DNA from: Spirochaetota bacterium | GTDB taxonomy: Bacteria > Spirochaetota > UBA12135 > COTS27 > JAFLEE01 | Direction: 5' to 3' | DNA: 38,898 nucleotides | NCBI GenBank assembly: GCA_017302015.1 | Contig: JAFLEE010000050.1 | Location: 1-38,898, forward strand | Shown: piece by piece, positions 603 through 16,563 of the stretch | How the letters are laid out: each line of letters starts with the position of its first letter | Position numbering within the stretch: the stretch's first letter is position 1 | The notes under the pieces: model-generated | What the model was told of the DNA's origin: nothing | Seen by the model: only the letters and a program-made list of their open reading frames with translations | Databases searched by the model: none | Made by a program: the position numbers and the translations under genes

Positions 603-1139
603 CTAGATGATGAAGCCGAAGATCTTGAACTCGCCCTGGAGCGGAACGAAATCGATCTCGACGAGGCGCGAAAAGGTCTTGGTCTGGGAGGTGGAGGCGT
701 TGACTTCCTGCACCTGCATCTGGAACTTGAGGAAATAATAGCGCGTCTGGCCGCCGCCATGGTCGATGGTCTCGTCGAGCACTTCCCGGGGGAGTTCGGG
801 CCGGGTGGCAAGTTCCCAGGTGCGCCCGTCGAATTCTTTGAGGAATTTATGGGCGTTATAGCCCGAGACGACCTTGAGGTAATCGAGGGCCGAGAGCTCG
901 TTCTGGATCATGGCGTCGATCTTCTTCTTGAGATCCATCTTCGAGATGTAGCGCACCTCGATGCCGCTGGCCAGGGCCCCGTTGACCTTGGTTTGGTCCC
1001 GGGCCGAGAGGGCCTCGAGGAAGCCCTTGGCCGTCGTGAGGATCTTCTCGCGGTCAGCCTCGGTGAGGCTTTGGCTGAAGGCCGGCACCAGCCCGACCAG
1101 GAAAAAGGCCAACATGGAGGCCCGTGCGAAGCGGATCAT
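603..1139 (-). CDS. Small secreted protein of unknown function
   Basis: This is a 178-residue protein with a clear Sec signal peptide (MIRFARASMLAFFLVGLVPAF, cleavage probably after FSQS), so it is periplasmic or surface-exposed. The mature part is a mixed alpha/beta chain. An early helix (ADREKILTTAKGFLEALSARD) resembles the start of NTF2-like or DUF4878-type small domains, and the end alternates hydrophobic residues in beta-strand fashion (FSRLVEIDFVPLQGEFKIFGFII). No catalytic motif is seen and I do not recognise the family. The ATG overlaps the cheR stop by four bases (ATGA), which indicates translational coupling to the chemotaxis genes. Confidence 0.8.
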   Translation of the reverse strand: MIRFARASMLAFFLVGLVPAFSQSLTEADREKILTTAKGFLEALSARDQTKVNGALASGIEVRYISKMDLKKKIDAMIQNELSALDYLKVVSGYNAHKFLKEFDGRTWELATRPELPREVLDETIDHGGGQTRYYFLKFQMQVQEVNASTSQTKTFSRLVEIDFVPLQGEFKIFGFII

Positions 1140-1984
1140 GGATTTTCCCTCATCGGAGCGGGCGTTGGCGCGCCCTCATCCTTATAGTATAGGGTTGTTT
1201 TGTCATTTTTGTAAAGTTGGAACCGCGTTTTCATGGAAAATAAAGATTCAGAATGCCCCAGAAAAAGGTATCCTTTCGGCCCTAGCGTATCATAAAACGA
1301 CTGGACGACCTTTTCCTGGGTGCTTTCCTCGAAATAAATGATGACATTCCGGCAGAAGATGATGTCCATCTCCCGTAGGTTCGTGGCGTGCTGGAGGTTA
1401 TGGTAGTCGAACCGGATGAGTTTCTTGAGTTCGGGGCCGACCTCGTAGCCGTCCTGGAGGTTGATGAAATACCGGGCCAGGAGGTCGGGGGGGATATGGG
1501 TGACCCGGGAAGTCTCGTAAAACCCCTGCTTGGCCACCATGAGGGTCCGCAGGCTGATGTCGCTGGCGTGGATGTGGAGGTCCCAGGACCGGGGGTCGGG
1601 GAGGATTTTCAGGAGCGATAAGGCGATGGTGTAGGGTTCCTCGCCCGTGGAGCACCCCGCCGACCAGATGGAAAGGCGCTTTTGGGCCCCCTTGCGGCGG
1701 ATGATTTCGGGGAGGATCGCCTGTTCCAGCACCTCGAATTGGGCCTCGTTGCGGAAGAAGCGGGTGAGGTTGGTGGTCACCGAATCGATGAATTCGGTGA
1801 GCGTGGCCTTGTCGGAGGTCAGTTTCCGGTAGAGCAGGTCGAGGGAGTCCAGGGCGTACTTCCGCAGGGCCCCGTCGAGGCGGTTCTCGAGCACGCTCCG
1901 GTTATACCGGGTGAAGTGGATCCCGGAGGCGGAACGGATGAGGTCCCGAAATCGGTCGAAGTCGGGTTCGGTGAGGCTCAGCAT
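1136..1984 (-). CDS. cheR: Chemotaxis protein methyltransferase CheR
   Basis: The protein of 282 residues transfers methyl groups from S-adenosylmethionine to glutamates of chemoreceptors in the cytoplasm. It has the usual CheR layout: an N-terminal helical domain with LIRSASGIHF, the linker VTTNLTRFFRN, the SAM-binding motif SAGCSTGEEPY, the acidic strand HASDIS, and the FCRNVIIYF catalytic segment near the C-terminus. All expected motifs are intact. It begins one base after the cheX-like stop and overlaps the next gene by four bases, so it is co-translated in the che operon. No receptor (MCP), cheB, cheW or cheY gene lies in the window, so its substrates are encoded elsewhere. Confidence 0.95.
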   Translation of the reverse strand: MLSLTEPDFDRFRDLIRSASGIHFTRYNRSVLENRLDGALRKYALDSLDLLYRKLTSDKATLTEFIDSVTTNLTRFFRNEAQFEVLEQAILPEIIRRKGAQKRLSIWSAGCSTGEEPYTIALSLLKILPDPRSWDLHIHASDISLRTLMVAKQGFYETSRVTHIPPDLLARYFINLQDGYEVGPELKKLIRFDYHNLQHATNLREMDIIFCRNVIIYFEESTQEKVVQSFYDTLGPKGYLFLGHSESLFSMKTRFQLYKNDKTTLYYKDEGAPTPAPMRENP

Positions 1985-1985
1985 G

Positions 1986-2447
1986 TCACGGGGTGTCCAT
2001 GCTCACGATGATGCGGATTTGGCCCACGGCGGTCTCGAGGAGCAGGTAGAGGGACTCCTGCTCGAGGCGAACGCCGCCGCCGGCGGGGTGGAACTGGATC
2101 TGGGGGGGCTCGATGTCGAAGAGCAGGCCCTCGCGCTCCATCTTGGTCACCGAGAGGCCGCAGAGCATGTTGGCGAACTCGCCGAGGGCGGAGCGGGAGA
2201 CGTCGTCCCAGGCGGCGAGTTTCTCCTCCATCAGGCGCCCGGCGATGGCCAGGCCCGTGGGGTCGCCCATATTGACGATGATCTTGTCCCCGGGGTGCCC
2301 CTTGATGCCGACGATGATGGACAGGCCCTCGATGGGCGTCTCGCGGTCTAGCAGCGAGATATCGCTCTTATGGAGGCCGTCGGGCCAATAGCCCCGGATG
2401 AGCTCGTAGGAAGCTTCGACGAAGGGGTGCACGAGTTCTAGTCGCAT
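1986..2447 (-). CDS. cheX: CheX/CheC-type CheY-phosphate phosphatase
   Basis: This is a 153-residue single-domain protein matching the CheX/CheC fold. It has a beta segment (EGLSIIVGIKG, KIIVNMGD), then the key helix ALGEFANMLCG carrying the ExxN phosphatase signature (Glu90, Asn93), and a repeat-like second half. CheX proteins dephosphorylate CheY-P and act as dimers with one active helix per subunit, which fits the single ExxN seen here. It starts 11 bases after cheA, with its ribosome site (GAGG) embedded at the cheA stop codon. The neighbouring kinase and methyltransferase support a chemotaxis role. The exact subfamily (CheX versus a one-helix CheC-like protein) is inferred. Confidence 0.78.
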   Translation of the reverse strand: MRLELVHPFVEASYELIRGYWPDGLHKSDISLLDRETPIEGLSIIVGIKGHPGDKIIVNMGDPTGLAIAGRLMEEKLAAWDDVSRSALGEFANMLCGLSVTKMEREGLLFDIEPPQIQFHPAGGGVRLEQESLYLLLETAVGQIRIIVSMDTP

Positions 2448-2458
2448 CGTTTCTAACC

Positions 2459-4675
2459 TCAGCCGTTGATGCGGATGGCGGCGCGCCCCGCCTGGTGGCC
2501 GCGTTCCCGCTCCAGGGCCATGCCGACGAAGGTGTGGATGTCGAGGATGAAGGTGATGGTGCCGTCGCCCAGATTGGCGGCGCCGGCGACGCCCCGGGCC
2601 GGGAGGAGGCGGTTCTTCAGGGCCTTGATGACGATATCCATCTCGCTGATGAGCTGGTCCACCAGGAGCGCGACTTTATTGTCTTCCTGGGTGACGATGA
2701 CGGCGTACATGTCCTCGGCCTCGTCCTCGGGGAGGTTGAACACGCGGTGGACGCGCACCACGGAGATGAGTTCCTCCCGGACCGTGATGACGTCGCGCCC
2801 CTCGATGGTCTTGATCTCGCCGGGGCCCAGGCGCAGGGTCTCGTGGATGGAGGAGATGGGGATGGCGTAGGTCTCGGAGGCGCACTGCACCAGGAGCGCC
2901 TGCATGATCGTCAGCGTCAGGGGCAGTTTCAGCACGATGGTGGAGCCGCGGTGGATCTCGGTTTCGATGGCGATGGTGCCGCTGAGGGCCTCCATGCGCT
3001 TGCGCACGACGTCCATGCCGACGCCGCGGCCGCTGATGGCGGTGACCTCTTTCGCGGTGGAGAAGCCGGGCAGGAAGATGAGCTGGATGCGCTCGCGCTC
3101 CGAGAGCGTCGTGCCGGCCTCGATGACGCCCTTCCTCACCGCGGACTGGTAGATGGCCTCGGCGTCCATGCCCTTCCCGTCGTCGCTGATCTCGAGGATG
3201 ATGGTGTTCCCCTCGTGGCGGGCGGCGAGGTGCAGGCGGCCCTTGGGGTTCTTGCCCAGCTTCACCCGGGTGGCGGGGTCTTCGATGCCGTGGTCCACCG
3301 AATTGCGCACGAGGTGGATCATGGGATCGAGGAGCTCCTCGACCACCGATTTGTCCATCTCGGTGTCGTCGCCGGTGATGATGACCTCGATCTCTTTGCC
3401 GCGTTCGCGGGCCAGGTCGCGCACGACCCGGGGGATGCGGTTGAAGATCTGCCCCACCGTCACCATGCGGATCTTCATCACGAGTTCTCGCAGGTTGGCC
3501 GAGATGCGGTCGAGTTCCTGCCAGGCGGTGCGCAGGGAACTGCCCACTTCGCGCAGGTTGGCTAAGGGGGCCCGGAAGGCCTCGAGTTCCTTGGAGAGGG
3601 CCTCGTCATCGCCCTGGTTTCCCTCGGCCTGGCGGTTCTTGCGCTGCTCCAACATGGTCGTGAGGTTCATGAGGGCCAATTGGAGGGAGGCGTCGAGGGG
3701 CGCGTAACTCGATTTATTGACCGTGAGTTCGCCCACCAGGTTGAGGATTTTGTCGACCCGCTCGGAATCGACCCGGAGCACCGAGGTACTGGCGTTCTTG
3801 CGGGCGCCGCCGGGGGCCTCGGGCTCGTCGCCCTCGGGCGCCGCGGTCGGCTTTCCGGCGGACGCCTCCGACTTCGCCAGGCTCATGAGTTGGATGCGGC
3901 ACTGGGTGACGGAATCGACCTGCCGGGCGGTCTCCTCGAGGACGGCGGTTTCGAGGCTGCTCGCCACCAGGAAATCGGTGATTTCAAACGAGCCCTCGCC
4001 CTGCAGTTCCTCGACCGTCGGCCGGGAAAAGAGGATCTCCCCGGCGTCGCGGAAGCGCGCGTAGGCCTGGGCCGGCGCGACGCCGGCCATCTCGCCCTTG
4101 GGGTCGTAATGCAGGCGGATCGCATGGACGGCGAGACCCTTCCCCACGGCTTCTTCGAGGCGCGCGACCACCGCGGGGTCCAGGCCCGAAAGCGTGAGTT
4201 CGGGCCCTTGCGCGGGAACCGGAGCGCTCTCGGGCGGAGGGGTCGGGGCGCTGCGTTTGACCGGGGCGGCGGCGGGGGCCCCTTCGATGAGGCTATGGGC
4301 CAATTGCAGCGCCTTCCCCATATCGCCGGGGTAGGGTTTCCCGTCGCGGGCGGCATCGACGAGGGTCGTCAAGATGTCGAGGCATTTGAGGAGTTTGTCG
4401 GCCAAGCGGTCGTCGACGGTGACCTTGCCCGAACGGATCTCGGAGAGGGTATCTTCGAGGGCGTGGGTGAACGTCTGGATATCGGCGAAGCCCACCGTGG
4501 CGCTGCCGCCCTTGATGGTGTGGGCCGCGCGGAAGACCTCGTTGATGGCTTCGAGGTCGCCGGGATGCTTCTCGAGGTGGAGGACGTTCTCTTCGAGCCG
4601 GCGGAGCATCTCGTCGGTCTCGTCGAAAAAATCCTTCTTCATTTCCTCGTGGTATCGGTCTTCCGTATCGCCCAT
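2459..4675 (-). CDS. cheA: Chemotaxis histidine kinase CheA
   Basis: The 738-residue kinase passes phosphate to the chemotaxis response regulator. Domains in order: P1 phosphotransfer with the phospho-accepting His52 in AAHTIKGGS; a Pro/Ala linker; a P2-like response-regulator docking region at about 160-268; the P3 dimerisation helices from about 296, enlarged by a charged insert near QRKNRQAEGNQG; the P4 ATPase domain with N-box HLVRNSVDHG (about 451), G1 box DDGKGMD (about 496) and GRGVGMD (about 545); and the P5 CheW-like domain to the end. All catalytic boxes are intact. The start ATG at 4675 has a GGGAGG site four bases upstream. No separate cheW is visible here, so the coupling protein must be elsewhere. 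Confidence 0.96.
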   Translation of the reverse strand: MGDTEDRYHEEMKKDFFDETDEMLRRLEENVLHLEKHPGDLEAINEVFRAAHTIKGGSATVGFADIQTFTHALEDTLSEIRSGKVTVDDRLADKLLKCLDILTTLVDAARDGKPYPGDMGKALQLAHSLIEGAPAAAPVKRSAPTPPPESAPVPAQGPELTLSGLDPAVVARLEEAVGKGLAVHAIRLHYDPKGEMAGVAPAQAYARFRDAGEILFSRPTVEELQGEGSFEITDFLVASSLETAVLEETARQVDSVTQCRIQLMSLAKSEASAGKPTAAPEGDEPEAPGGARKNASTSVLRVDSERVDKILNLVGELTVNKSSYAPLDASLQLALMNLTTMLEQRKNRQAEGNQGDDEALSKELEAFRAPLANLREVGSSLRTAWQELDRISANLRELVMKIRMVTVGQIFNRIPRVVRDLARERGKEIEVIITGDDTEMDKSVVEELLDPMIHLVRNSVDHGIEDPATRVKLGKNPKGRLHLAARHEGNTIILEISDDGKGMDAEAIYQSAVRKGVIEAGTTLSERERIQLIFLPGFSTAKEVTAISGRGVGMDVVRKRMEALSGTIAIETEIHRGSTIVLKLPLTLTIMQALLVQCASETYAIPISSIHETLRLGPGEIKTIEGRDVITVREELISVVRVHRVFNLPEDEAEDMYAVIVTQEDNKVALLVDQLISEMDIVIKALKNRLLPARGVAGAANLGDGTITFILDIHTFVGMALERERGHQAGRAAIRING

Positions 4676-6295: not shown

Positions 6296-7600
6296 ATGGG
6301 CAATCGATTTTTTCTGATTCTAATCCTTAGCGGCTTGGTTTGCATGGCTTGGGCTGATCCAGCCCTTTCCGATAGCTTCATGAACGCCGGCCTCAAGGCC
6401 TATTTGAACGGAAACGTCGAGGAGGCTATCGAATTATTCCAGAAGGCCACTGCGGAAAATCCAGCCAATTCGAAGGCCAAGAATGCCCTTCTTTCCGCAC
6501 TGCTTTTCGAGGGAAAGAAGCGCTTCACAGACCGCAATTTCCTCTCCTCGAAGGGCTTTTTCGAGCGGGCCCTCTCCCTCGACCCCGCCAATGCCGTCGC
6601 CAAAGACTATATGTCGAGGATGCCCGCCGATCGGGCCCTTAAAGACAATGCCGAACCCCAGGCGGCCCAAAAAAGCCGCATTGAAAAAGATCTGGAAGCC
6701 CGGGCCCCCGCCACCAACAACGCCCCAGAACCCTCCTCCCCCCAGGCCCGCGCCGAACAATTCCAGAAGATCATCGTCGAAACGCGCAATATGGGCGGGT
6801 CGTCCGAGGGTTTGGACGAGTTCATCACGGCCCTCAAATCCGTCGAGAAACAGAGCCGCGAAGCGGGAGACCTCAAGTACCGCCTCGGCGCCAGCGAGGA
6901 ACGCGGCAAATCGAAGAATGTTGTGTTCATCGCGGTGCTCATCGCGCTCGTGGCCATCTTCCTCGCCCTCCTCTCCTATTTCATCGTGCGGTTCTACCGG
7001 TTCCGGGTCAAACTCGCGGAGCATAGCTACCAGTTCACGGCGGAACGCGAGGCGAAAATCCTCCAGGTCATGAACAATGTGGTCAACCTCGAATATAAAT
7101 CCGCCCCGGGAGGGGCCGTCCGATTGACCGGCCCCCAATCCGACCGCCTCCAGATCGACCAAGCCCCGTCGCCCCAACCCGATGAGACCATCCTCGTCCC
7201 CGACGCGATCGTCCGGCGCCTGGAGGACCTCGGCGCCCGGGAACAAATCTCGGTGCGCCAGATGGAACTCGACCTCTCCTCCTCCAACGCCCATGTGCGC
7301 GCCATGGCGATGCTGTGCTGCTTCCTGCAAGACAAGGCGCGCGGCCTCGAACTCGTCGTCCATGCCGCCGACCTCGAATTCGAGAACGCCCGCCTCATGG
7401 CCGATCTGGTGAAGATCACCGGCGCCCTGGGGGATGTGGACCTCTTCGCCCTCCTCCTGGACCGGCGGGCGAAGGTCGCCCATACCCCGGAAAATGCCGC
7501 GCTCCTGCGCGAACTCGCCCGGGAGTTCAAGGACGCCGGCAAACTGGCCGGGGAGCCCGATCTCGACCGCATGGCCGGCGAAGTCCTCGCGGCGGGCTAG
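6296..7600 (+). CDS. Exported TPR-containing single-pass membrane protein of unknown function
   Basis: The 434-residue protein begins with a Sec signal peptide (FFLILILSGLVCMAWA). It is followed by two or three TPR-like helix pairs at about 28-105 (AGLKAYLNGNVEEAIELFQK; FFERALSLDPANAVAK). A charged, Pro-rich linker leads to a transmembrane helix at about 209-234 (VVFIAVLIALVAIFLALLSYF). The C-terminal half, predicted cytoplasmic, is helical and HEAT-like (HVRAMAMLCCFLQDK; DVDLFALLLDRR). The layout suggests a periplasmic TPR platform tethered to a cytoplasmic domain. It sits upstream of the giant surface-protein cluster with a 176-base gap. No enzymatic motif is seen and I do not recognise a named family. 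Confidence 0.8.
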   Translation: MGNRFFLILILSGLVCMAWADPALSDSFMNAGLKAYLNGNVEEAIELFQKATAENPANSKAKNALLSALLFEGKKRFTDRNFLSSKGFFERALSLDPANAVAKDYMSRMPADRALKDNAEPQAAQKSRIEKDLEARAPATNNAPEPSSPQARAEQFQKIIVETRNMGGSSEGLDEFITALKSVEKQSREAGDLKYRLGASEERGKSKNVVFIAVLIALVAIFLALLSYFIVRFYRFRVKLAEHSYQFTAEREAKILQVMNNVVNLEYKSAPGGAVRLTGPQSDRLQIDQAPSPQPDETILVPDAIVRRLEDLGAREQISVRQMELDLSSSNAHVRAMAMLCCFLQDKARGLELVVHAADLEFENARLMADLVKITGALGDVDLFALLLDRRAKVAHTPENAALLRELAREFKDAGKLAGEPDLDRMAGEVLAAG

Positions 7601-7776: not shown

Positions 7777-10700
7777 ATGCCGATCCCATCGCTCCGTTTT
7801 TTTTCCATGGCCACCGCCGCGTTCGCGCTCCTCGCGCTCCCCCTATCCGCGGCGTTCACCAACACCTTCGACGTCACCCTCTCGAACAATTTCGCCACCA
7901 ATGAAGCCGTCTTCCGGTTCACCTCCACGAACCTGACCCACGGGCGCTACGGCGAGAACCAGTGGCTCGACACGGCCTACACCAAGCGGATCAAATACTC
8001 CGTGACCAATTCGATGATCGCGGGCGACCTCACGAATTTCCCGGTGTTGGTGAAATTGACCAACGCGGTGCTGTTCGCCTCGTCCAAAACCTACGGAGAA
8101 GACCTCCGCTTCACCTCCATCGACGGAACCAACCTCCTCAATTTCGAGATCGAGAATTGGGACGCCGCCGGGAAGACCGCCAACGTCTGGGTGCGCCTCC
8201 CCCTCCTCAGTTCCGGCAGCAATACCTCGTTTTACGCCTATTTCGCCAATGCGGGCCTTCCCACCGACGCCTCGTTCCGGGGGCTGAACCCCTCCAATGC
8301 CTGGGACACTAATTTCCGCTCCGTCTGGCACCTCAAGGAGAGCGGTAGCGGCGCAGTGGGCGAGTTTTTCGACAGCACCACGAACACGAACGGGGGCCGC
8401 GGCGGCAACGGCACGGCGGGGCGCATCCCCGTGCGCACCAACGGCGTCGTCCAAGACGGGCAGTACTTCGACGGGGTCAACGACTACATCCAATTCAACC
8501 AGAGCAATCTCGGGCCGCTCACCCTTTCGCTCTGGGCGAAGGCCGACTCCGTCAACCCGTCCAAGATGCTGTGGTGCTTCAAACTCCAGAGCCCGGGTCC
8601 CGACCTCTGGTTCCAGAACAACGCCATCATCTACCTCAACACGTGGGACGGGAACAATACTCCCGTCTGCGCGACGCCGGCGACCGTCACCTCGTGGCAC
8701 CATTACACGATGGTCTTCTCCAATTCCGCGCGGTTCTTCATCGACGGGGTCTATGCCGGAACGGCCTCCGTCTATAAAGACCCAACCAGCGCCAATTTTA
8801 GCCTCGCCACCTCCGACACGAGCTATTGCTGGAAGGGGGCCATCGACGAGGCTCGCCTCTCGTCCGGGGCCCGCTCCGCCGCCTGGATCCTGGCTGAGTA
8901 CACCAATATGCTCGATCCCGGCGCTTTCGCCGTCTCGGGAACGGTGGAAGACCTTTCGTCCGTTCGCCCCTCCACCACCCCGTGGGTGGCCCCGAAGGCC
9001 GCGTTCCAAGTGGCCGATCTCGCGACCTGGACCAATTTCGCCGTGTCGAATCTCGTGACCAACGGGGGGCTCGCCCTCTTCCAAATCGCCACCAATGACG
9101 GCTCCAACGCGAGCGATTGGCTCTACTGGAGCAATAGCATCGCCTGGGTCCCCGCCAACGGACTCCCCACGACCAATAACCGCTCCAACGCGAACTCCGT
9201 CACCGAGGTCAACGCGGGCCTCACCAATCTCCCGGTCGCCTCCGGGAAATTCAATTGGCGGGCCTGCTTCCTCTCGGACGGCACCAACGAACTCTACATG
9301 GGGAACGTCTCCATCGCCTTCACCCGGGTCGCGCCCAGCATCACCAATCCGGCGGCCAGCGGAACGCCCGTCTTCGGGCTAAACCAGAGTTTCGTTTGGA
9401 CGGGGAACTCCAACCTCTATTACACGCTGCTCGTCGGCACCAACGCCCTCCTCACCGGTTCCCGCCTCGCCGTCTCCAACGTCCAGGGGAACCAATGGGC
9501 GATCTCCAATACCGCCCCGACGAATTGGCTCCAGACCTCGAACTACTACGTCACCGTGATCTCTTCCGATCCGTTCCAGAACGCGACCCCCGGCGCGGTG
9601 ACCAATGATTTCCAATTCCAGAACAATGCGCCGTCCCTCGACTGGGCGTCGAACAAACCGCGCCTCTGGTTGGAGAGCCCCTCCGCCTCGGATCGGTCGC
9701 TCGCCTGGCAGGCCAGCGATAGCGATCCGTGCGACGTGCCGTACCTCGCCTACACCCTCACCCTGGCGACCAATTTGCCGTTGGCCTCCCACATCATCAC
9801 GAACATCAGCCTCTCCAACAACAGCATCGACCTCGCCCCCGTCCAGACGGCCCTTTCCGGGATGATGCTCGACGGCGCGACGATCTACTGGCGCGTGAGC
9901 GTCTCCGATCCCCACCTGGGGACCTCCCCCGCCTTCGCCACCCCGAGCAATTTCTACCTCGACGTGACGAATAATACCCCGGCCGTCACGAGCAATCTGC
10001 TCTTTACCGTGAGCGCCTCCAACCTCTTCAGTTCGAATACCGTATTCAGCTGGTCCGGGGGCGACTTCGACCAGGGCGACCTCGTGACCTATAATTTCCA
10101 GGTCGTGGAGTCGGTGTCGGGGTTGGTGGCCGCCGATCTCTTCACCACCAATACCAACCTCGTGCTCCCGGTGCAATTGACCTCGAACGAGCACTACGTC
10201 CTGCGCGTGCGCGGGCGCGACCAGAAGGGCCTCGTCTCTTCCCTCCAGACGAATTGGGGCGTCTGGACGAACGGTACCACCAATTACTTCATCTACGACA
10301 CCACGCTCGCGAGCCTCGCCACGGCTTTCCCGACGGTCCTGAGCGGCACCACGGTGACGAAGGCTTCCGCCCTTTCCTGGTCCAACGCCCAGGCCGGGTA
10401 TGGCTACCAGGTCTTGGTGTCTCCCACCAGCAATTTCACCTCGGTCCAATCCACGACCAACCTCTCCGGCGCCTCGGTGCCGCTCACTTCCCTCGCCTCC
10501 TTCTCGAACCTGGTCTCCGGGTCCACGAACTACTACGCCATGGTGTCCGTGCTCTCGAATACGCTCTCGGCGCCGAGCTATATCTACGCCTCAGGCCTCG
10601 GTTCCTTCGTGTTCCAGGACGACGCGAACCCCATGGCCTTGGGCGCGCTCAGCGTCAGCAACGAACTCTACATCCCCGGTCCGTCCCCGACCCATTACTC

Positions 10701-13572
10701 CCTGTTCTTTTCCGGGACCGAAGCCAACGGCATGGAGATCTCCTACGTCTTCACGTTCTACACCAACACGAACGTGGTGGTCGAAACCCGCAGCAACGTC
10801 ACCGGGACCTCCCTCGACGTCCGTCTGCTCACCAATTACGCCGCGTTGCCCGACAACGTCGGGATCAACTGGGAAGTCACGGCGATGGTCAACAGCCACC
10901 AGACCCTCAAAACCCTCACGGGGGTTTCCCGCTCCTTCTTCCTCAATAAGGCCAATGACGCGCCGACGGCGAGCAACCTGAGCGCGCCCCTCGACGGGCG
11001 CCTCTATTTGAACGATCCCATCACGCTCCAGAGCGTGAGCGATCCCGACCTCTACGACGCGGTGAGCAACGAGTTCGTCGCCTCGCTCTACCCGGCCTTC
11101 CCGGCGTTTTCCCTCTACACCTACGCGAGCACCAACCGCACGGCGCTGCTCTCCTCGTTCACCAACGGGAGCGGCACCGCGATCCTGCAGGACCTCGGCG
11201 CCTCGAACGCCGTCTACGTGCGCGTGCGGTCCTTCGACAATCGGGGCGGGCTCTCCCCGTGGCTCTCGGCCACGAACGCCAGCGGGACCCTCTTCGCCGG
11301 CCTCAACGACCTCCGCCTCGTGGCCCCGGTGCCCGTCTCGCCCGTCAGCCTCTCCGTGACCCAAGGGCACGGGGGCACGCTGTCCTGGTCCAACGCGGTC
11401 ACCCTCCCATCGACCAACGCGGGGGGGCAACCGCTCCTCTACGCCATCCAATTCGCGACCAATTCCAACTTCAACGGCATGACCTCGACGAACGTCGACT
11501 TGAGCCTCGCGGGCAGCGTCGCGTTCTCCCAGGTCGATTTCCCCCGCCTCACCAATTATTCCGCGTGCTTCTTCCGCCTACAGGCCTATTACGGGGCCGG
11601 GAATGCCGGCAGCGTCTACGGCACGAACCTGGGGAGTTTCACCTTCCTCGACGACAACGCTCCCGTGGCCGCCTTCGTCCTCACGACGACGAACGAAGTC
11701 TACGGGACCAACGACGGCACCCCGGCGGAGCGCAGCCTGCGCTGGCTCGCCGCGAGCGAGGCCGACGGCGACCGGGTCACCTACGACCTCTACCTCTTCG
11801 CGACCAACACCAACGGGGCCCCCGCCATCTCCACGAACACCAACCTCGCCACCAATGTCCTCGATATCGCGTCGGCGAACAATTTCCAGGTCCTCCAGGA
11901 CAATACCCGCTACTGGGTCATGATCACCAATATCCGCGATAGCCATGGGCGGGAGAACGTCTCCTACCCTTCCTTGGCGTCCTACCGTCGCGATTTCCTC
12001 TTCAACTTGAGCAACGACCTGCCGACGGCTCCCTCCAACCTCGCCTTCACGGTGAGCGCCCCCGCCGCCACCAATTTCGCCGTCTGCGCGCCCAAGGCGG
12101 AATTCGGGTTTTCCGCCACCGACCCCGATTCGTACGACATCGCCTCCCTGCAATACCACCTGTACGTGTACAGCACCAACGACGTCACCAATGCGTCCAA
12201 CTACTACACCAACGGCGTCCCCGCCCAACCGATGTACGAGTACGTGACGTCGAGCAATAAAGCCAGCCTCTTCGACCTCGTCGCCCGGTACGCCACGCGC
12301 AATTTGAGCGATCCCGGCCTCACCAACGGGCGGCCCTTCGTTCTCGGCGTGCGGGCCTACGATCAGCGGGGCGGGGCCTCGGGGCTCTGGGTGTATCCCC
12401 TCGTCTTCACCTACTCGAACAATAACCTGGCGCCCACGGTCAAACCCCAATTGGCATTCTCCAACGGCCTCCTCGGTTCCACCCTGTATTGGACCAACGG
12501 ATCCGATCCCGACGATTCCGCCCTCCTCTACCGCATCGAAATCTCCGCCTCCTCGTCGTTCGCCACGCTCTTGGCTTCGACCAACGCCGCGGCGCAGCAG
12601 GGCGCGGCGAACCAGGTCTCGAGCCTCCCCCTCGCCTCGCTCCCGGGCTTCGCTTCCCTCGCGACCGGCCGGGCCTATTTCATCCGCATCGAAGGACACG
12701 ACCCCTACGACGGCACCAACCTGGGTTATTCGGCCCCCTCCGGGTTCTACCTCCCCCGCGCCGACGAAGACCTCGACTTCACCGAGTTCCATATCGGCGA
12801 CCTCTCCGCCGCTTACGCCGGTCGAAGCGCCGACAAGGCGCTCAAATTGACCCTCCCCGCCCCCGGGCTCCCGGAGGGGATGCTCCTGCGCCTTCGGAGC
12901 GTGCCCTACGCCTCCGTGGGCCTGAAGACGAATTTTTCGGCCTGGGTGACCGCCTTCGGGAAGGTCTTCCCCGACCGCAATCGCCGGGTCGTCCAATCCA
13001 AGATCTACGAAGTCGGCGCCAGCGCGCTCGATGGCACGCGGGCGGACGCCGCCTATGCCACCCCCGTCCGCCTCTCCCTCACCCTCGCCGATGCGGCGCT
13101 CCTCGCCATGAGCAATACGGCCTATTACCGCATCGCCCAACTAAACGGCGCCACGACCGAATGGAATATCCTCGATTCGGCCACCCAGGCCGATGGCCTC
13201 TTGGGATGGGTCGCCACGAGCAATGGCGCCTTCACCGTGCTGGCCCACGTCACCCCGATGGAGGCCCTCTCGAGCCCGCTCGCCTTCCCCAACCCGGTCT
13301 CCATCGAGAAGACGGGGGCCGTCTCGCTCTCCGTGGTGACCACCGCCGCGGGTAGCCTCGAGATCCAAGTCCTCGATCTGCGGGGGCGGATGGTCTTCAA
13401 GACGCGCCAAGACGTGGAAGCCTCCCCCGAAGGCCGCCTGCGGGTCTTCCGTTGGGATGCCCGTGATTCGTTCGGTCAATTATGCGCCCCGGGCGTCTAT
13501 GTCGTGCGCTATCTCTTGACGTCGCCCGGACAAGCGGTCGTGGTGAAGACCACCCGGATAGGAGTGAAATGA
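7777..13572 (+). CDS. Giant secreted DUF2341/LamG/Fn3-like surface protein with T9SS-like C-terminal domain
   Basis: The 1931-residue protein opens with a signal peptide (residues 1-27, ATAAFALLALPLSAAF). A DUF2341-like domain covers about 70-168. A LamG/concanavalin-like fold covers about 178-378, with the typical FDGVNDYIQF and KGAIDEARLSSGARSAAWI. A long array of Fn3/Ig-like modules of about 100-120 residues follows to about 1660. Several have the pattern DPDxYD, ATN, YWRV, D-x-x-G and FxxNxxNDxPTAPSNL. A non-repeated region precedes a last domain (about 1832-1931) that begins FPNP and contains LEIQVLDLRGRMVF, WDARDSFG and APGVYVVRY, as in FlgD-Ig and type IX sorting domains. The Thr-Asn dipeptide is strikingly frequent. 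The ATG at 7777 has GGGAG about nine bases upstream. The likely role is a surface polysaccharide-binding or adhesin-like protein; this is inferred. Confidence 0.88.
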   Translation: MPIPSLRFFSMATAAFALLALPLSAAFTNTFDVTLSNNFATNEAVFRFTSTNLTHGRYGENQWLDTAYTKRIKYSVTNSMIAGDLTNFPVLVKLTNAVLFASSKTYGEDLRFTSIDGTNLLNFEIENWDAAGKTANVWVRLPLLSSGSNTSFYAYFANAGLPTDASFRGLNPSNAWDTNFRSVWHLKESGSGAVGEFFDSTTNTNGGRGGNGTAGRIPVRTNGVVQDGQYFDGVNDYIQFNQSNLGPLTLSLWAKADSVNPSKMLWCFKLQSPGPDLWFQNNAIIYLNTWDGNNTPVCATPATVTSWHHYTMVFSNSARFFIDGVYAGTASVYKDPTSANFSLATSDTSYCWKGAIDEARLSSGARSAAWILAEYTNMLDPGAFAVSGTVEDLSSVRPSTTPWVAPKAAFQVADLATWTNFAVSNLVTNGGLALFQIATNDGSNASDWLYWSNSIAWVPANGLPTTNNRSNANSVTEVNAGLTNLPVASGKFNWRACFLSDGTNELYMGNVSIAFTRVAPSITNPAASGTPVFGLNQSFVWTGNSNLYYTLLVGTNALLTGSRLAVSNVQGNQWAISNTAPTNWLQTSNYYVTVISSDPFQNATPGAVTNDFQFQNNAPSLDWASNKPRLWLESPSASDRSLAWQASDSDPCDVPYLAYTLTLATNLPLASHIITNISLSNNSIDLAPVQTALSGMMLDGATIYWRVSVSDPHLGTSPAFATPSNFYLDVTNNTPAVTSNLLFTVSASNLFSSNTVFSWSGGDFDQGDLVTYNFQVVESVSGLVAADLFTTNTNLVLPVQLTSNEHYVLRVRGRDQKGLVSSLQTNWGVWTNGTTNYFIYDTTLASLATAFPTVLSGTTVTKASALSWSNAQAGYGYQVLVSPTSNFTSVQSTTNLSGASVPLTSLASFSNLVSGSTNYYAMVSVLSNTLSAPSYIYASGLGSFVFQDDANPMALGALSVSNELYIPGPSPTHYSLFFSGTEANGMEISYVFTFYTNTNVVVETRSNVTGTSLDVRLLTNYAALPDNVGINWEVTAMVNSHQTLKTLTGVSRSFFLNKANDAPTASNLSAPLDGRLYLNDPITLQSVSDPDLYDAVSNEFVASLYPAFPAFSLYTYASTNRTALLSSFTNGSGTAILQDLGASNAVYVRVRSFDNRGGLSPWLSATNASGTLFAGLNDLRLVAPVPVSPVSLSVTQGHGGTLSWSNAVTLPSTNAGGQPLLYAIQFATNSNFNGMTSTNVDLSLAGSVAFSQVDFPRLTNYSACFFRLQAYYGAGNAGSVYGTNLGSFTFLDDNAPVAAFVLTTTNEVYGTNDGTPAERSLRWLAASEADGDRVTYDLYLFATNTNGAPAISTNTNLATNVLDIASANNFQVLQDNTRYWVMITNIRDSHGRENVSYPSLASYRRDFLFNLSNDLPTAPSNLAFTVSAPAATNFAVCAPKAEFGFSATDPDSYDIASLQYHLYVYSTNDVTNASNYYTNGVPAQPMYEYVTSSNKASLFDLVARYATRNLSDPGLTNGRPFVLGVRAYDQRGGASGLWVYPLVFTYSNNNLAPTVKPQLAFSNGLLGSTLYWTNGSDPDDSALLYRIEISASSSFATLLASTNAAAQQGAANQVSSLPLASLPGFASLATGRAYFIRIEGHDPYDGTNLGYSAPSGFYLPRADEDLDFTEFHIGDLSAAYAGRSADKALKLTLPAPGLPEGMLLRLRSVPYASVGLKTNFSAWVTAFGKVFPDRNRRVVQSKIYEVGASALDGTRADAAYATPVRLSLTLADAALLAMSNTAYYRIAQLNGATTEWNILDSATQADGLLGWVATSNGAFTVLAHVTPMEALSSPLAFPNPVSIEKTGAVSLSVVTTAAGSLEIQVLDLRGRMVFKTRQDVEASPEGRLRVFRWDARDSFGQLCAPGVYVVRYLLTSPGQAVVVKTTRIGVK

Positions 13573-15515
13573 TGACCCTCTTTCGTACCCGCCTCCCCGC
13601 GGCCACCCTGGCCCTCGCCGCCCTCCTGGGGACCGCATCCCGGGCCCAGGCCCAAATCGTCAATCCCATCGCGATCACCCAACCCACCGCCGATAAGGCG
13701 GGGCTCTTCTCCACCGAAGTCGGGATGACCGCCCGTAATTTGTCCATGGGGCGGGCCTTCACCGGCGTGCTCGACGACGCCAGCGCCCTCTACTTCAATC
13801 CGGCCGGCCTCGCCCTGGGCACCCAATTCCTGGGCGCCGCGAGCTATTCCTTCATGGATCTCGGGGTGCGGTATTTCAGCGGCGCCTTCGCCTTCCCCTT
13901 CACGGAACGCTTCGTGCTCGGCGTGGGCTGGATCAATACCGGCCTCGCCACGAAGATCGACAAGATCGACGTCTTCGGCATCCCCACCGGGGAGACCTTC
14001 GGCCAGGACGAGAACCTCGTCACCGTCGGCCTCGGCATCCGCCTCTTCCAAAGCGATAAATGGGGCCTCATCACCACGGGGATCAACGCCAAACTCGCCA
14101 CCCTCGCCTTCGATTCGGATGTGAGCGCCGGCCTCGGCTTGGACGTCGGCTTCGCGTGGGATCTCCCCCGCATCGCCTCCCGCTTCGGCCTCTCCTTCCA
14201 GAACGTCCCCCCGCCGAAGATGACCCTGGCCACGGGGCGCGCCGCCAGCTATCCCATCAACATGCGCTTGGGCTACAGTACCCGGCTCATCCCCAAATTG
14301 CTCCTCGCGGCCGAGTTCGACCTCATCGGCCTCGCCCATCCCCAGCCCCAGTTCGGCGCGGGCGTCGGCGCGGAATGGACGCCCATCCGCTTCCTTTCCC
14401 TCAACGCGGGTTGGAACCTGACCGAACTCAGCCTGGGCACCTCGCTCCACCTCCTCTCCTTCGACGTCGGCTACGCGTTCATCCTCGGGTCGGGCGGGGC
14501 GAGCCACCACCTCTCCCTCGGGTACGTCTTCGGGCGCATCCCTTCCCTCGAGGAGCGCGACCAAAAGAAGCGCGATGGCGACTTGGCCTACCGGGAACTC
14601 GACCTCGCCTACCGGGAAAAAATCGCCAAGGAAGACTACCGCGCGGCGAGCGACCTGATGTCCCAGCTCATCCAGAACCGGAAAGCCTATACGTCCACCG
14701 TCGAGGAGGCCCTCCTTCTGGCCCAGAAGGAACTCGGGATGAAGATCCGCTCCGAGGAACTCTACGCCAAGGCGGATAAGGAATACAAGGCCCGCCAATT
14801 CGACAAGGCTTTCGAGACGATCCAGGAAGTCTACCGGATCAATCCGGACTACCGCAAAGCCGTCTCGCTGAAGGAGAAGATCATCAACCACCGGGAGGTT
14901 TCGGAGCGCATCGCCGCGATCCGGGAGCACGTGGCCAAACGGCGCTACGAAGAGGCCGACAGCATGATCGAATACTGCCTGAAGCTCGAGGCCGAGAACC
15001 CCGATCTCGCCGCCCTCAAAAAGCAGGTGAAGCCCTTCGTCGCCGAGTCCATCTCGCGGAAGATCCTGGAGGAAGCCGCGCTCTTCGTCAAGATCGGCAA
15101 CCGCCCGAAGGCCCTCGAGAAGGTGGAGGACGCCCTCAAATACTGGCCGGAGAACCCTGACGCGAAGGCCCTCAAAACCCGCATCGGCGCCGAGGAACTG
15201 TCCGCGCGCTACGCCCGGGCCTTCGAGGCCTTCAAGGCCGGACGCCACGAGGACGCCATCGCCCTCTGCGTCGAACTCGAGGCCACCAAGGCCGAAGGAA
15301 CCGAAAGCGCCAATATCCTCGCGGATATCCGGAAACTGAAGAACCTCGCCAACTCGCGCCTGTGCATCGTCAAGGCCAAGGCGGCCCTGGACGCCTCGGA
15401 CTTCAAGGCGGCGGAGACCCAGATCAAGAAGGCGCTGGAGTTCGACCCGACCAACCCCGAGGCCCTGGAAACCTACGAGCGCTACAAGAGCATGAAGGCG
15501 CTCCTCTCCCCCTGA
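13572..15515 (+). CDS. PorV/UPF0164-like outer-membrane barrel fused to a C-terminal TPR region
   Basis: The 647-residue protein has a signal peptide ending near ASRAQA. A beta-barrel domain to about residue 325 carries the PorV-family motif ARNLSMGRAFTGVLDDASAL followed by YFNPAGLA, and alternating strands end in LSLGYVFG. From about 330 to the end it is all helical, with TPR-like repeats (AYREKIAKEDYRAASDLMSQ; KARQFDKAFETIQEVYRINP; ALEFDPTNPEALETYERYK). PorV in type IX secretion receives proteins bearing C-terminal sorting domains. That fits the upstream partner, whose stop codon overlaps this start (TGATG; an ATG three bases earlier would give an ATGA overlap). GGAG at 13561 favours the second ATG. 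The TPR tail probably lies in the periplasm. Confidence 0.82.
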   Translation: MTLFRTRLPAATLALAALLGTASRAQAQIVNPIAITQPTADKAGLFSTEVGMTARNLSMGRAFTGVLDDASALYFNPAGLALGTQFLGAASYSFMDLGVRYFSGAFAFPFTERFVLGVGWINTGLATKIDKIDVFGIPTGETFGQDENLVTVGLGIRLFQSDKWGLITTGINAKLATLAFDSDVSAGLGLDVGFAWDLPRIASRFGLSFQNVPPPKMTLATGRAASYPINMRLGYSTRLIPKLLLAAEFDLIGLAHPQPQFGAGVGAEWTPIRFLSLNAGWNLTELSLGTSLHLLSFDVGYAFILGSGGASHHLSLGYVFGRIPSLEERDQKKRDGDLAYRELDLAYREKIAKEDYRAASDLMSQLIQNRKAYTSTVEEALLLAQKELGMKIRSEELYAKADKEYKARQFDKAFETIQEVYRINPDYRKAVSLKEKIINHREVSERIAAIREHVAKRRYEEADSMIEYCLKLEAENPDLAALKKQVKPFVAESISRKILEEAALFVKIGNRPKALEKVEDALKYWPENPDAKALKTRIGAEELSARYARAFEAFKAGRHEDAIALCVELEATKAEGTESANILADIRKLKNLANSRLCIVKAKAALDASDFKAAETQIKKALEFDPTNPEALETYERYKSMKALLSP

Positions 15516-15522
15516 GGGCGAT

Positions 15523-16563
15523 ATGCAATTGCGCGACCTGCTCAACCAGTACCAGCCCATTACCCTGGAGGAGATCCTCGCCCAATGCGAGATCCTGCCC
15601 TTCGACATCTACCACCTGCATCCCGAATCGAAGTCCTACGTCCTGCTCGCCAAGGCGAATCGAAGCGTCTCGACCATCGCGAAACTGGCCTTCCAGTTCT
15701 ACATCCGCAAGGAGGACGCGGCGGCCTACCTCGAGATCAAGACCCGCAGCGTGGCCAAGTACCGGGAGACCTTCGAGACCAAGATGTCGGACCGCTTCGC
15801 CACGATGGAGGAGAAGGCCGAGTCGCTCTACCGCTTCGCCGACGTGCTCATCGAGGCCTCCCTCAATAATCCCCAAGACCTCAAGATGATCGAGGAGACC
15901 CGGGGGTTCGTGAAGATGGTGGTCGACCTCGCCGCGGTCAACCTCACCCTCCTCGACCACCTGAAACGGGAGGGCGACGTCAACCGCTACCTCTACCGGC
16001 ATTCCATCAACGTCTTCATCCTCGCCAGCACCTTCCTGCAACTCCACGCCATGCGCGCCGGGGGGATCACCCCCAAAGAGGTGCTCAACGCCGCCATGGG
16101 GGCGCTCTATATCGACATCGCCATGCCCCAAGTCCCCGAGGAGATCTACGGGAAATCCTCCCCCCTCACCGATGAGGAGATGGCCGTCATCCGCCAGCAC
16201 CCGGCGGCGGGGTATGCCATCCTCAAGACCGCCGTCGACGAGCACCAGGTCGTGATGTCGGAGACGTCCCTGGCGGTGGTCCTGGGCCACCATGAGCGCT
16301 TCGACGGCTCCGGGTACCCGAAGGGCGCCAAGGGCGACACGCTGCCCCTCGCCATCCGCGCCATCTCGATCTGCGACGTCTATGAGGCGCTCACCTCGCC
16401 TAGGCCCTACCGGCCCCCCTACCTTCAGTTCGCTGCCGCGAAATTCATGAAAGAAGAGATGGCGACCAAATTCGACCCGGATCTCCTCGACAAATTCATC
16501 ATTATGCTGGGCCCCAAGCAGATGATCGAATACGAGTTCGAAAAGCGCCGCCTCCTCAAATAA
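15523..16563 (+). CDS. HD-GYP-like protein with degenerate HD motif
   Basis: The 346-residue protein has an unfamiliar N-terminal region (1-150) and an HD-GYP domain after it. The first conserved His is kept (His160, HSINVF), as are RQHPAAG, HHERFDGSGYPKG (His256-His257) and DVYEALTSPRPYR. The core HDxGK motif, however, reads I-D-I-A-M at 197-201: the metal-binding His is Ile and the catalytic Lys is Met. Active HD-GYP proteins hydrolyse cyclic-di-GMP; this one may instead sense it or act as a scaffold. It starts only seven bases after the PorV-TPR gene, so the three genes probably form one transcript. No membrane segment or receiver domain is visible. Confidence 0.85.
   Translation: MQLRDLLNQYQPITLEEILAQCEILPFDIYHLHPESKSYVLLAKANRSVSTIAKLAFQFYIRKEDAAAYLEIKTRSVAKYRETFETKMSDRFATMEEKAESLYRFADVLIEASLNNPQDLKMIEETRGFVKMVVDLAAVNLTLLDHLKREGDVNRYLYRHSINVFILASTFLQLHAMRAGGITPKEVLNAAMGALYIDIAMPQVPEEIYGKSSPLTDEEMAVIRQHPAAGYAILKTAVDEHQVVMSETSLAVVLGHHERFDGSGYPKGAKGDTLPLAIRAISICDVYEALTSPRPYRPPYLQFAAAKFMKEEMATKFDPDLLDKFIIMLGPKQMIEYEFEKRRLLK

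Follow-up and report, generated by a model that had tools for sequence, protein, structure and literature searches.

In a 38,898-nucleotide stretch of Spirochaetota DNA (contig JAFLEE010000050.1, hereafter the window, which forms contig C112 of a draft assembly of 5.4 Mb, hereafter the own genome), the gene of a giant secreted protein is directly followed by the gene of a PorV-like outer-membrane barrel with a TPR-like tail (Table 1). We consider it probable that the two encode a cargo resembling those of the type IX secretion system (T9SS) and its own PorV-type shuttle and surface anchor, acting in a type IX-like pathway outside Bacteroidota. The window pair is not singular, being one of many. 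Such pairs recur within and between genomes, the cargo C-terminal domain (CTD) and the barrel co-evolve, and the two are homologous to the CTDs of PorU and PorZ and to PorV, respectively.

Cargo and barrel of the window

The cargo carries a Sec-type signal sequence, MPIPSLRFFSMATAAFALLALPLSA followed by AF, and a DUF2341 and a LamG-like lectin domain close to its N-terminus. The barrel protein has a Sec-type signal sequence of its own, MMTLFRTRLPAATLALAALLGTASRAQA followed by QI (both recognised by eye). The two genes share the tetranucleotide ATGA at positions 13569-13572, which contains the cargo stop and the barrel start codon, and an AGGAG motif is found at 13560-13564. The overlap of stop and start codons reported in the initial annotation is thus present, as is the secreted protein of 1931 residues ending in a FlgD-Ig or type IX sorting-like domain: its open reading frame (ORF), signal sequence and profile matches were all recovered, the latter mostly under curated cut-offs.

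The barrel was compared with the PorV/PorQ family NF033709, whose curated cut-off is 90 bits. The window barrel scored 54.8 bits over its whole length (E = 1e-14) and 57.1 bits for the barrel part, and 39.6 bits against the PorQ model. This family model matched nine of ten own-genome barrels; no match in the own genome exceeded the cut-off (best score 85), which is why we name these barrels "PorV-like". A Pfam PorV assignment was rejected for the window barrel, Pfam having no match for any of the ten own-genome barrels; a relative in another genus passes the Pfam PorV model PF19572 (27.6 for a cut-off of 27). When the barrel profile was compared with the PDB, the best match was PorV of the SprA complex (6H3I, E = 2.1e-12), followed by TodX (4.9e-4). 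The single-sequence structure model of the barrel part, with a predicted local distance difference test (pLDDT) score of about 22, is unusable as a barrel model. The initial placement in the PorV family therefore holds as regards profile matches and nearest solved relative, and fails at the curated cut-off. A type B/SprF pair was considered and rejected: the window barrel was matched by PorV/PorQ models but by none for PorP/SprF, and the type B CTD does not fit the window cargo, whose CTD matches type A-like models instead.

These barrels might alternatively be FadL/TodX-like channels, or general porins for small hydrophobic ligands, the cargo being merely an operon-mate such as a binding protein feeding the channel. 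PorV itself has a FadL-type barrel fold, TodX and TbuX appear as weak second matches, and some members give weak scores with spirochaete UPF0164 relatives. We nevertheless regard this explanation as improbable, since the E-value of PorV is eight orders of magnitude below that of TodX and since the CTD is the constant partner of the barrels while the cargo bodies vary among many unrelated types.

The CTD of the window cargo scored 20.5 bits against FlgD_ig (curated cut-off 27 bits) and, against the sorting-domain model TIGR04183 (curated cut-off 23 bits), 19.0 bits within the whole protein and 23.4 bits as the isolated last 100 residues. The comparison of these last residues with FlgD-Ig and sorting profiles proposed earlier thus returned matches to both models, the FlgD_ig one being under its cut-off. 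The best NCBIfam match was the CTD end of PorU, and the CTD end of PorZ matched too. Modelled from the single sequence with modest confidence (pLDDT 65), the domain shows a seven-stranded Ig-like sandwich at the C-terminus; among its nearest folds FlgD came first and PorU lower in the list. A CTD profile run against the PDB retrieved FlgD, PorZ (5M11) and PorU (6ZA2). The top rank of FlgD in the fold comparison and its strong sequence match, together with a weakly seen TPR_Slam match, could be read as indicating an ordinary FlgD-Ig-like assembly domain exported by another secretion route, with the TPR-barrel as an assembly factor like Slam or the BamD-linked TPR proteins. That the domain is strictly C-terminal, is tied to PorV-like barrels and matches the PorU and PorZ CTDs makes this very improbable.

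Recurrence and specificity of the pairs

PorV-like loci in the own genome numbered 8 by PorV-family search and 14 with a profile built from its own barrels. A CTD cargo gene adjoins 10 of the 11 PorV-like genes examined, for a chance expectation of about 0.02. The cargo precedes the barrel in eight pairs (on contigs C97, C17, C96, C57 and C103, twice on C155, and in the window), with spacings from -4 to about 90 nucleotides, and follows it in two (C94 and C109); the barrel of C89 has no pair. The C109 locus is the window plan reversed, a barrel with a tail of about 300 residues (transglutaminase-like, weak) overlapping by 4 nucleotides the gene of a 1881-residue Big_5/CTD protein. The cargo bodies of the own genome are mutually unlike and include fn3/Big_7, beta-helix, CBM96/F5_F8/PKD and Big_5 types. 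Side observations were made at three of these loci. At C94 (L025:3983-11098), the PorV-like barrel and its 374-residue CTD cargo lie within a run of CxxCH-rich genes, multihaem cytochrome-like by eye, which could encode a surface electron-transfer complex. At C155 (L027:6640-7662) and C57 (L030:10702-11877), another secreted gene of similar appearance comes after the pair, which suggests a three-gene unit.

The search was extended to related genomes. With the own-barrel profile, four other Spirochaetota genomes contained 28 to 64 barrels each, the richest having about 60 barrels and about 70 CTD-tagged proteins. Hidden Markov models for barrels and CTDs, both built up iteratively from sequences of the own genome alone, were applied to 60 regions fetched from four further genera plus the own loci. 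A same-strand CTD ORF ended less than 500 nucleotides upstream of 58 of 81 barrels; as the regions had been picked around barrels, this proportion measures how often a barrel has a CTD beside it and not the reverse. These CTDs ended 0-13 residues from the stop codon. Seven of ten barrels fetched from a further genome, G146, were likewise paired. Across 33 genomes, PorV and CTD counts per genome were correlated (Spearman 0.78; 0.60 when six rich genomes were removed). Adjacency of the two genes, which the initial annotation had proposed to look for in relatives, is thus the rule. The own genome is itself isolated, just three of the searched relatives belonging to its class.

We then asked how closely CTDs and barrels follow each other. 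These specificity tests rest on other genera, the window pair having no close ortholog pair. In a mirror-tree comparison, CTD and barrel distances were correlated (r = 0.43) and none of 5000 within-genome shuffles gave as high a value; the signal was clear in the own genome and in G005. In 74 of 137 cases, for 11 expected, the best match of a CTD in another genome adjoined the most similar barrel. Homologous cargo bodies were found in 15 of 31 reciprocal-best barrel pairs between genera, compared with 68 of 1818 background pairs. Ten reciprocal-best pairs had untruncated cargos whose bodies were unrelated; even there the CTDs matched each other with a median of 53 bits, compared with 24 for the background (p = 4e-4). 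Because orthologous barrels keep similar CTDs despite unrelated bodies, these sequence comparisons suggest that the inherited unit is the CTD plus the barrel, the cargo body being exchangeable.

Agreement between the trees could also arise if the barrels were shared, exchangeable PorV shuttles, adjacency reflecting joint duplication with the cargo and regulation rather than specific recognition. Bacteroidota PorV does take all type A CTDs (PMC12618676), the mirror-tree signal is lacking in G014 and G026, and CTD cargos for which no barrel was found nearby exist in the own genome (C24, C101). The persistent similarity of CTDs beside orthologous barrels despite different bodies, and the some 60 barrels per genome that would be superfluous if one sufficed, make this explanation unlikely in our view. 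The dedicated cargo-and-receiver pair of the initial annotation thus gains from recurrent adjacency and CTD-barrel co-evolution; it loses its singularity, and one-to-one coupling was already known in type B T9SS.

Tails, translocon and neighbouring genes

The tail of the window barrel, annotated initially as about 320 residues of TPR repeats, spans about 300. It scored 31.7 bits against Fis1_TPR_C (cut-off 25.3), the other TPR models remaining under their cut-offs. Its structure model is a 13-helix TPR-like solenoid of helix pairs, with pLDDT values of 70-94 over the last 150 residues, and TPR chains are among its structural matches. The two termini of an outer-membrane barrel lie on the periplasmic side, where the tail is therefore expected. 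The fusion is neither unique nor an assembly artefact, an explanation rejected because TPR-tailed barrels recur in regions L084, L086, L103, L104, L117 and L162.

Among the fetched barrels, many have a short tail or none, and the rest extend from about 60 to 880 residues past the barrel. Besides TPR arrays (L084, L086, L117, L162 and the window), we found OmpA tails (L074, L126), a weakly matching transglutaminase-like tail (L034; a similar one with TPR in L085), a CsgG/FlgO-like tail (L079) and a FlgD-Ig, CHU_C and OmpA tail (L126). In a quick tree, several tail types were conserved within groups of related barrels across families. The OmpA tails suggest peptidoglycan anchoring, and the TPR tails would fit, by analogy, the PorE part of a PorE-PorP-cargo complex (PMC9143113, PMC12618676). 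The initial annotation saw in the TPR tail a periplasmic docking platform. A TPR-like tail is indeed present; it is merely one of several alternatives (OmpA, transglutaminase-like, CsgG/FlgO-like, FlgD-Ig), and docking to one conserved partner is for this reason unlikely as the general role of such tails. As side observations, L126:4604-7999 is a single ORF in which a PorV-like barrel is combined with several FlgD-Ig/CHU_C domains and one OmpA domain, and two very large ORFs gave split matches to the barrel profile: L086:2-2410 (803 residues, cut by the end of the stretch) and L075:2905-7128 (1408 residues, with a long TPR array).

The own genome contains one SprA-like ORF of 2278 residues with three collinear matches to TIGR04189 (E = 1.9e-32). 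This model matched 11 of 11 aligned Spirochaetota proteins, which had been chosen from its own matches (best 2.7e-45), and no other secretion family did. An SprA match was present in 17 of 20 genomes with at least three PorV-like genes, compared with 1 of 13 others. The sprA-like gene (L029:2177-12947) lies, by eye, in a housekeeping neighbourhood, downstream of ybaB-, recR-, dxr- and rseP-like genes. Other components gave the following results. GldM (PorM, TIGR03517) had no credible match in 12 genomes, a search run without T9SS-positive control and not extended to GldL (PorL); GldN (PorN, TIGR03523) had no match in any genome searched, again without positive control, and GldK (PorK) was not searched for. 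PorU (NF033707) was matched solely at its CTD end (about 950-1095), never above its cut-off and also without positive control, and the window protein contains no C25 peptidase part. The earlier proposal to look for sov, porU, porN and porM thus yielded an SprA/Sov-like gene, PorU by its CTD alone, and no credible match to the PorM and PorN models.

Among the neighbours of the pair, the HD_5 gene downstream is probably on the same transcript as the barrel, and the TPR/membrane gene upstream is probably outside the pair. CheR- and CheA-like genes, recognised by eye, lie further upstream on the minus strand (1136-4675).

Table 1. Features of the window pair and its neighbours
Feature	Position	Strand	Basis
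Giant secreted cargo protein, 1931 residues	7777..13572	+	ORF, family profiles; signal sequence by eye
DUF2341 domain of cargo (residues 107-165)	8095..8271	+	Profile match, E = 7.5e-9
Laminin_G_3 / ConA-like lectin domain of cargo (residues 232-371)	8470..8889	+	E = 3.3e-16
Cargo CTD (FlgD-Ig / T9SS type A-like), reaching the stop codon	13264..13569	+	Profiles and structure model
AGGAG ribosome-binding site and ATGA overlap, coupling cargo to barrel	13560..13572	+	Sequence
PorV-like outer-membrane barrel with TPR tail, 648 residues	13569..15515	+	ORF and profiles
Signal sequence and PorV-like barrel part	13569..14534	+	Profile; NF033709 match at residues 50-294
TPR-like helical tail, about 300 residues, predicted periplasmic	14559..15512	+	Profiles, model; side inferred from outer-membrane protein topology
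HD_5-domain protein, starting 8 nucleotides past the barrel stop	15523..16563	+	ORF and profile
TPR/membrane protein upstream, 176 nucleotides before the cargo	6296..7600	+	ORF and profile

Proposed pathway and known type IX systems

On this basis we infer the following route. The cargo would cross the inner membrane by Sec and, with its C-terminal FlgD-Ig-like domain as sorting signal, would pass the outer membrane through the SprA/Sov-like translocon, whose gene lies elsewhere in the genome. The PorV-like barrel, translated together with the cargo, would bind the CTD and pull the cargo laterally from the translocon; since no sortase was seen, it would then probably stay bound as the surface anchor of the cargo. 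The TPR tail would hang into the periplasm and fix or position the complex, as PorE (TPR plus OmpA-like) does for type B cargo bound to SprF/PorP, and the variable periplasmic tails at large (TPR, OmpA, transglutaminase-like) would hold the barrel in place.

Several observations weigh against this interpretation. By sequence, the window CTD is at the border of the curated sorting-domain cut-off, and the window barrel is under that of PorV/PorQ. The own SprA-like protein reached 112 bits for a TIGR04189 cut-off of 200, and PDB searches with this protein and with its alignment gave no match. No SprA match was obtained in G146, although this genome is 97% complete and has at least seven cargo-barrel pairs (L162-L171), so that its translocon is unaccounted for. 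About one fifth of the barrels lack an adjacent CTD gene. Of the four genomes analysed individually, two show no mirror-tree signal (G026, r = 0.005; G014, p = 0.14), and no clear one-to-one ortholog of the window barrel with the same cargo was found among 149 relatives. The least certain points of the interpretation are the standing of the pathway as a true T9SS and the dedicated nature of recognition. More tentatively, the pairs could belong to a simplified type IX-like system of this Spirochaetota branch, with an SprA-like translocon and neither PorLM motor nor PorKN ring nor PorU sortase. Each type A-like cargo, of which a genome would encode up to about 60, would then have its own PorV-type shuttle kept as surface anchor, interchangeable tails setting the position of the cargo. 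If the motor is truly absent, the question arises of what powers secretion.

Surveys have confined T9SS to Bacteroidota or to the FCB (Fibrobacteres-Chlorobi-Bacteroidetes) group (PMC4793230, PMC12618676, PMC11205867), and a search of open-access literature on T9SS in Spirochaetota and on PorV paralogs gave no description of the paired arrangement. Dozens of one-cargo PorV-type barrels in another phylum would show dedicated shuttles to be an alternative way of type IX-like secretion, and the pairs would provide natural signal-shuttle sets for deriving recognition rules.

The system shares with the T9SS of Bacteroidota a type A-like Ig-fold CTD on Sec-exported cargo, a PorV-like barrel and the gene of an SprA-like giant protein. 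It differs in its many cargo-adjacent PorV-like genes, where Bacteroidota have one general PorV, in the TPR or other tails that the barrels may carry, and in its phylum, Spirochaetota. FadL/TodX channels and spirochaete UPF0164 proteins share the broad barrel fold, with a profile match far weaker than that of PorV. In P. gingivalis, porU and porV are 75 bp apart and no cargo gene is adjacent to T9SS genes (PMC5445135); the gene of a CTD protein just before porV resembles our arrangement, but PorU is a sortase and not a cargo. In Bacteroidota at large, type A signals share one PorV, whereas genes with type B signals are directly followed by their dedicated SprF/PorP genes (PMC12618676), and PorE, a TPR/OmpA-type protein, is thought to hold the PorP-cargo complex statically (PMC9143113, PMC12618676). 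The type B cargo/SprF(PorP) operons of F. johnsoniae, some with PorE-like genes (PMC12618676; PMC9143113), have in common with our pairs a cargo gene followed by its own shuttle barrel gene, signal-shuttle specificity and a TPR/OmpA-type PorE; our pairs differ in having a PorV/PorQ-like barrel, a type A/FlgD-like CTD and a TPR part fused to the barrel. As one-to-one coupling is known for type B signals and SprF/PorP (PMC12618676), the concept of a dedicated shuttle is not new; the new part is its use with the PorV/type A kind. By analogy, the window pair would work like a type B pair built of PorV and type A-like parts.

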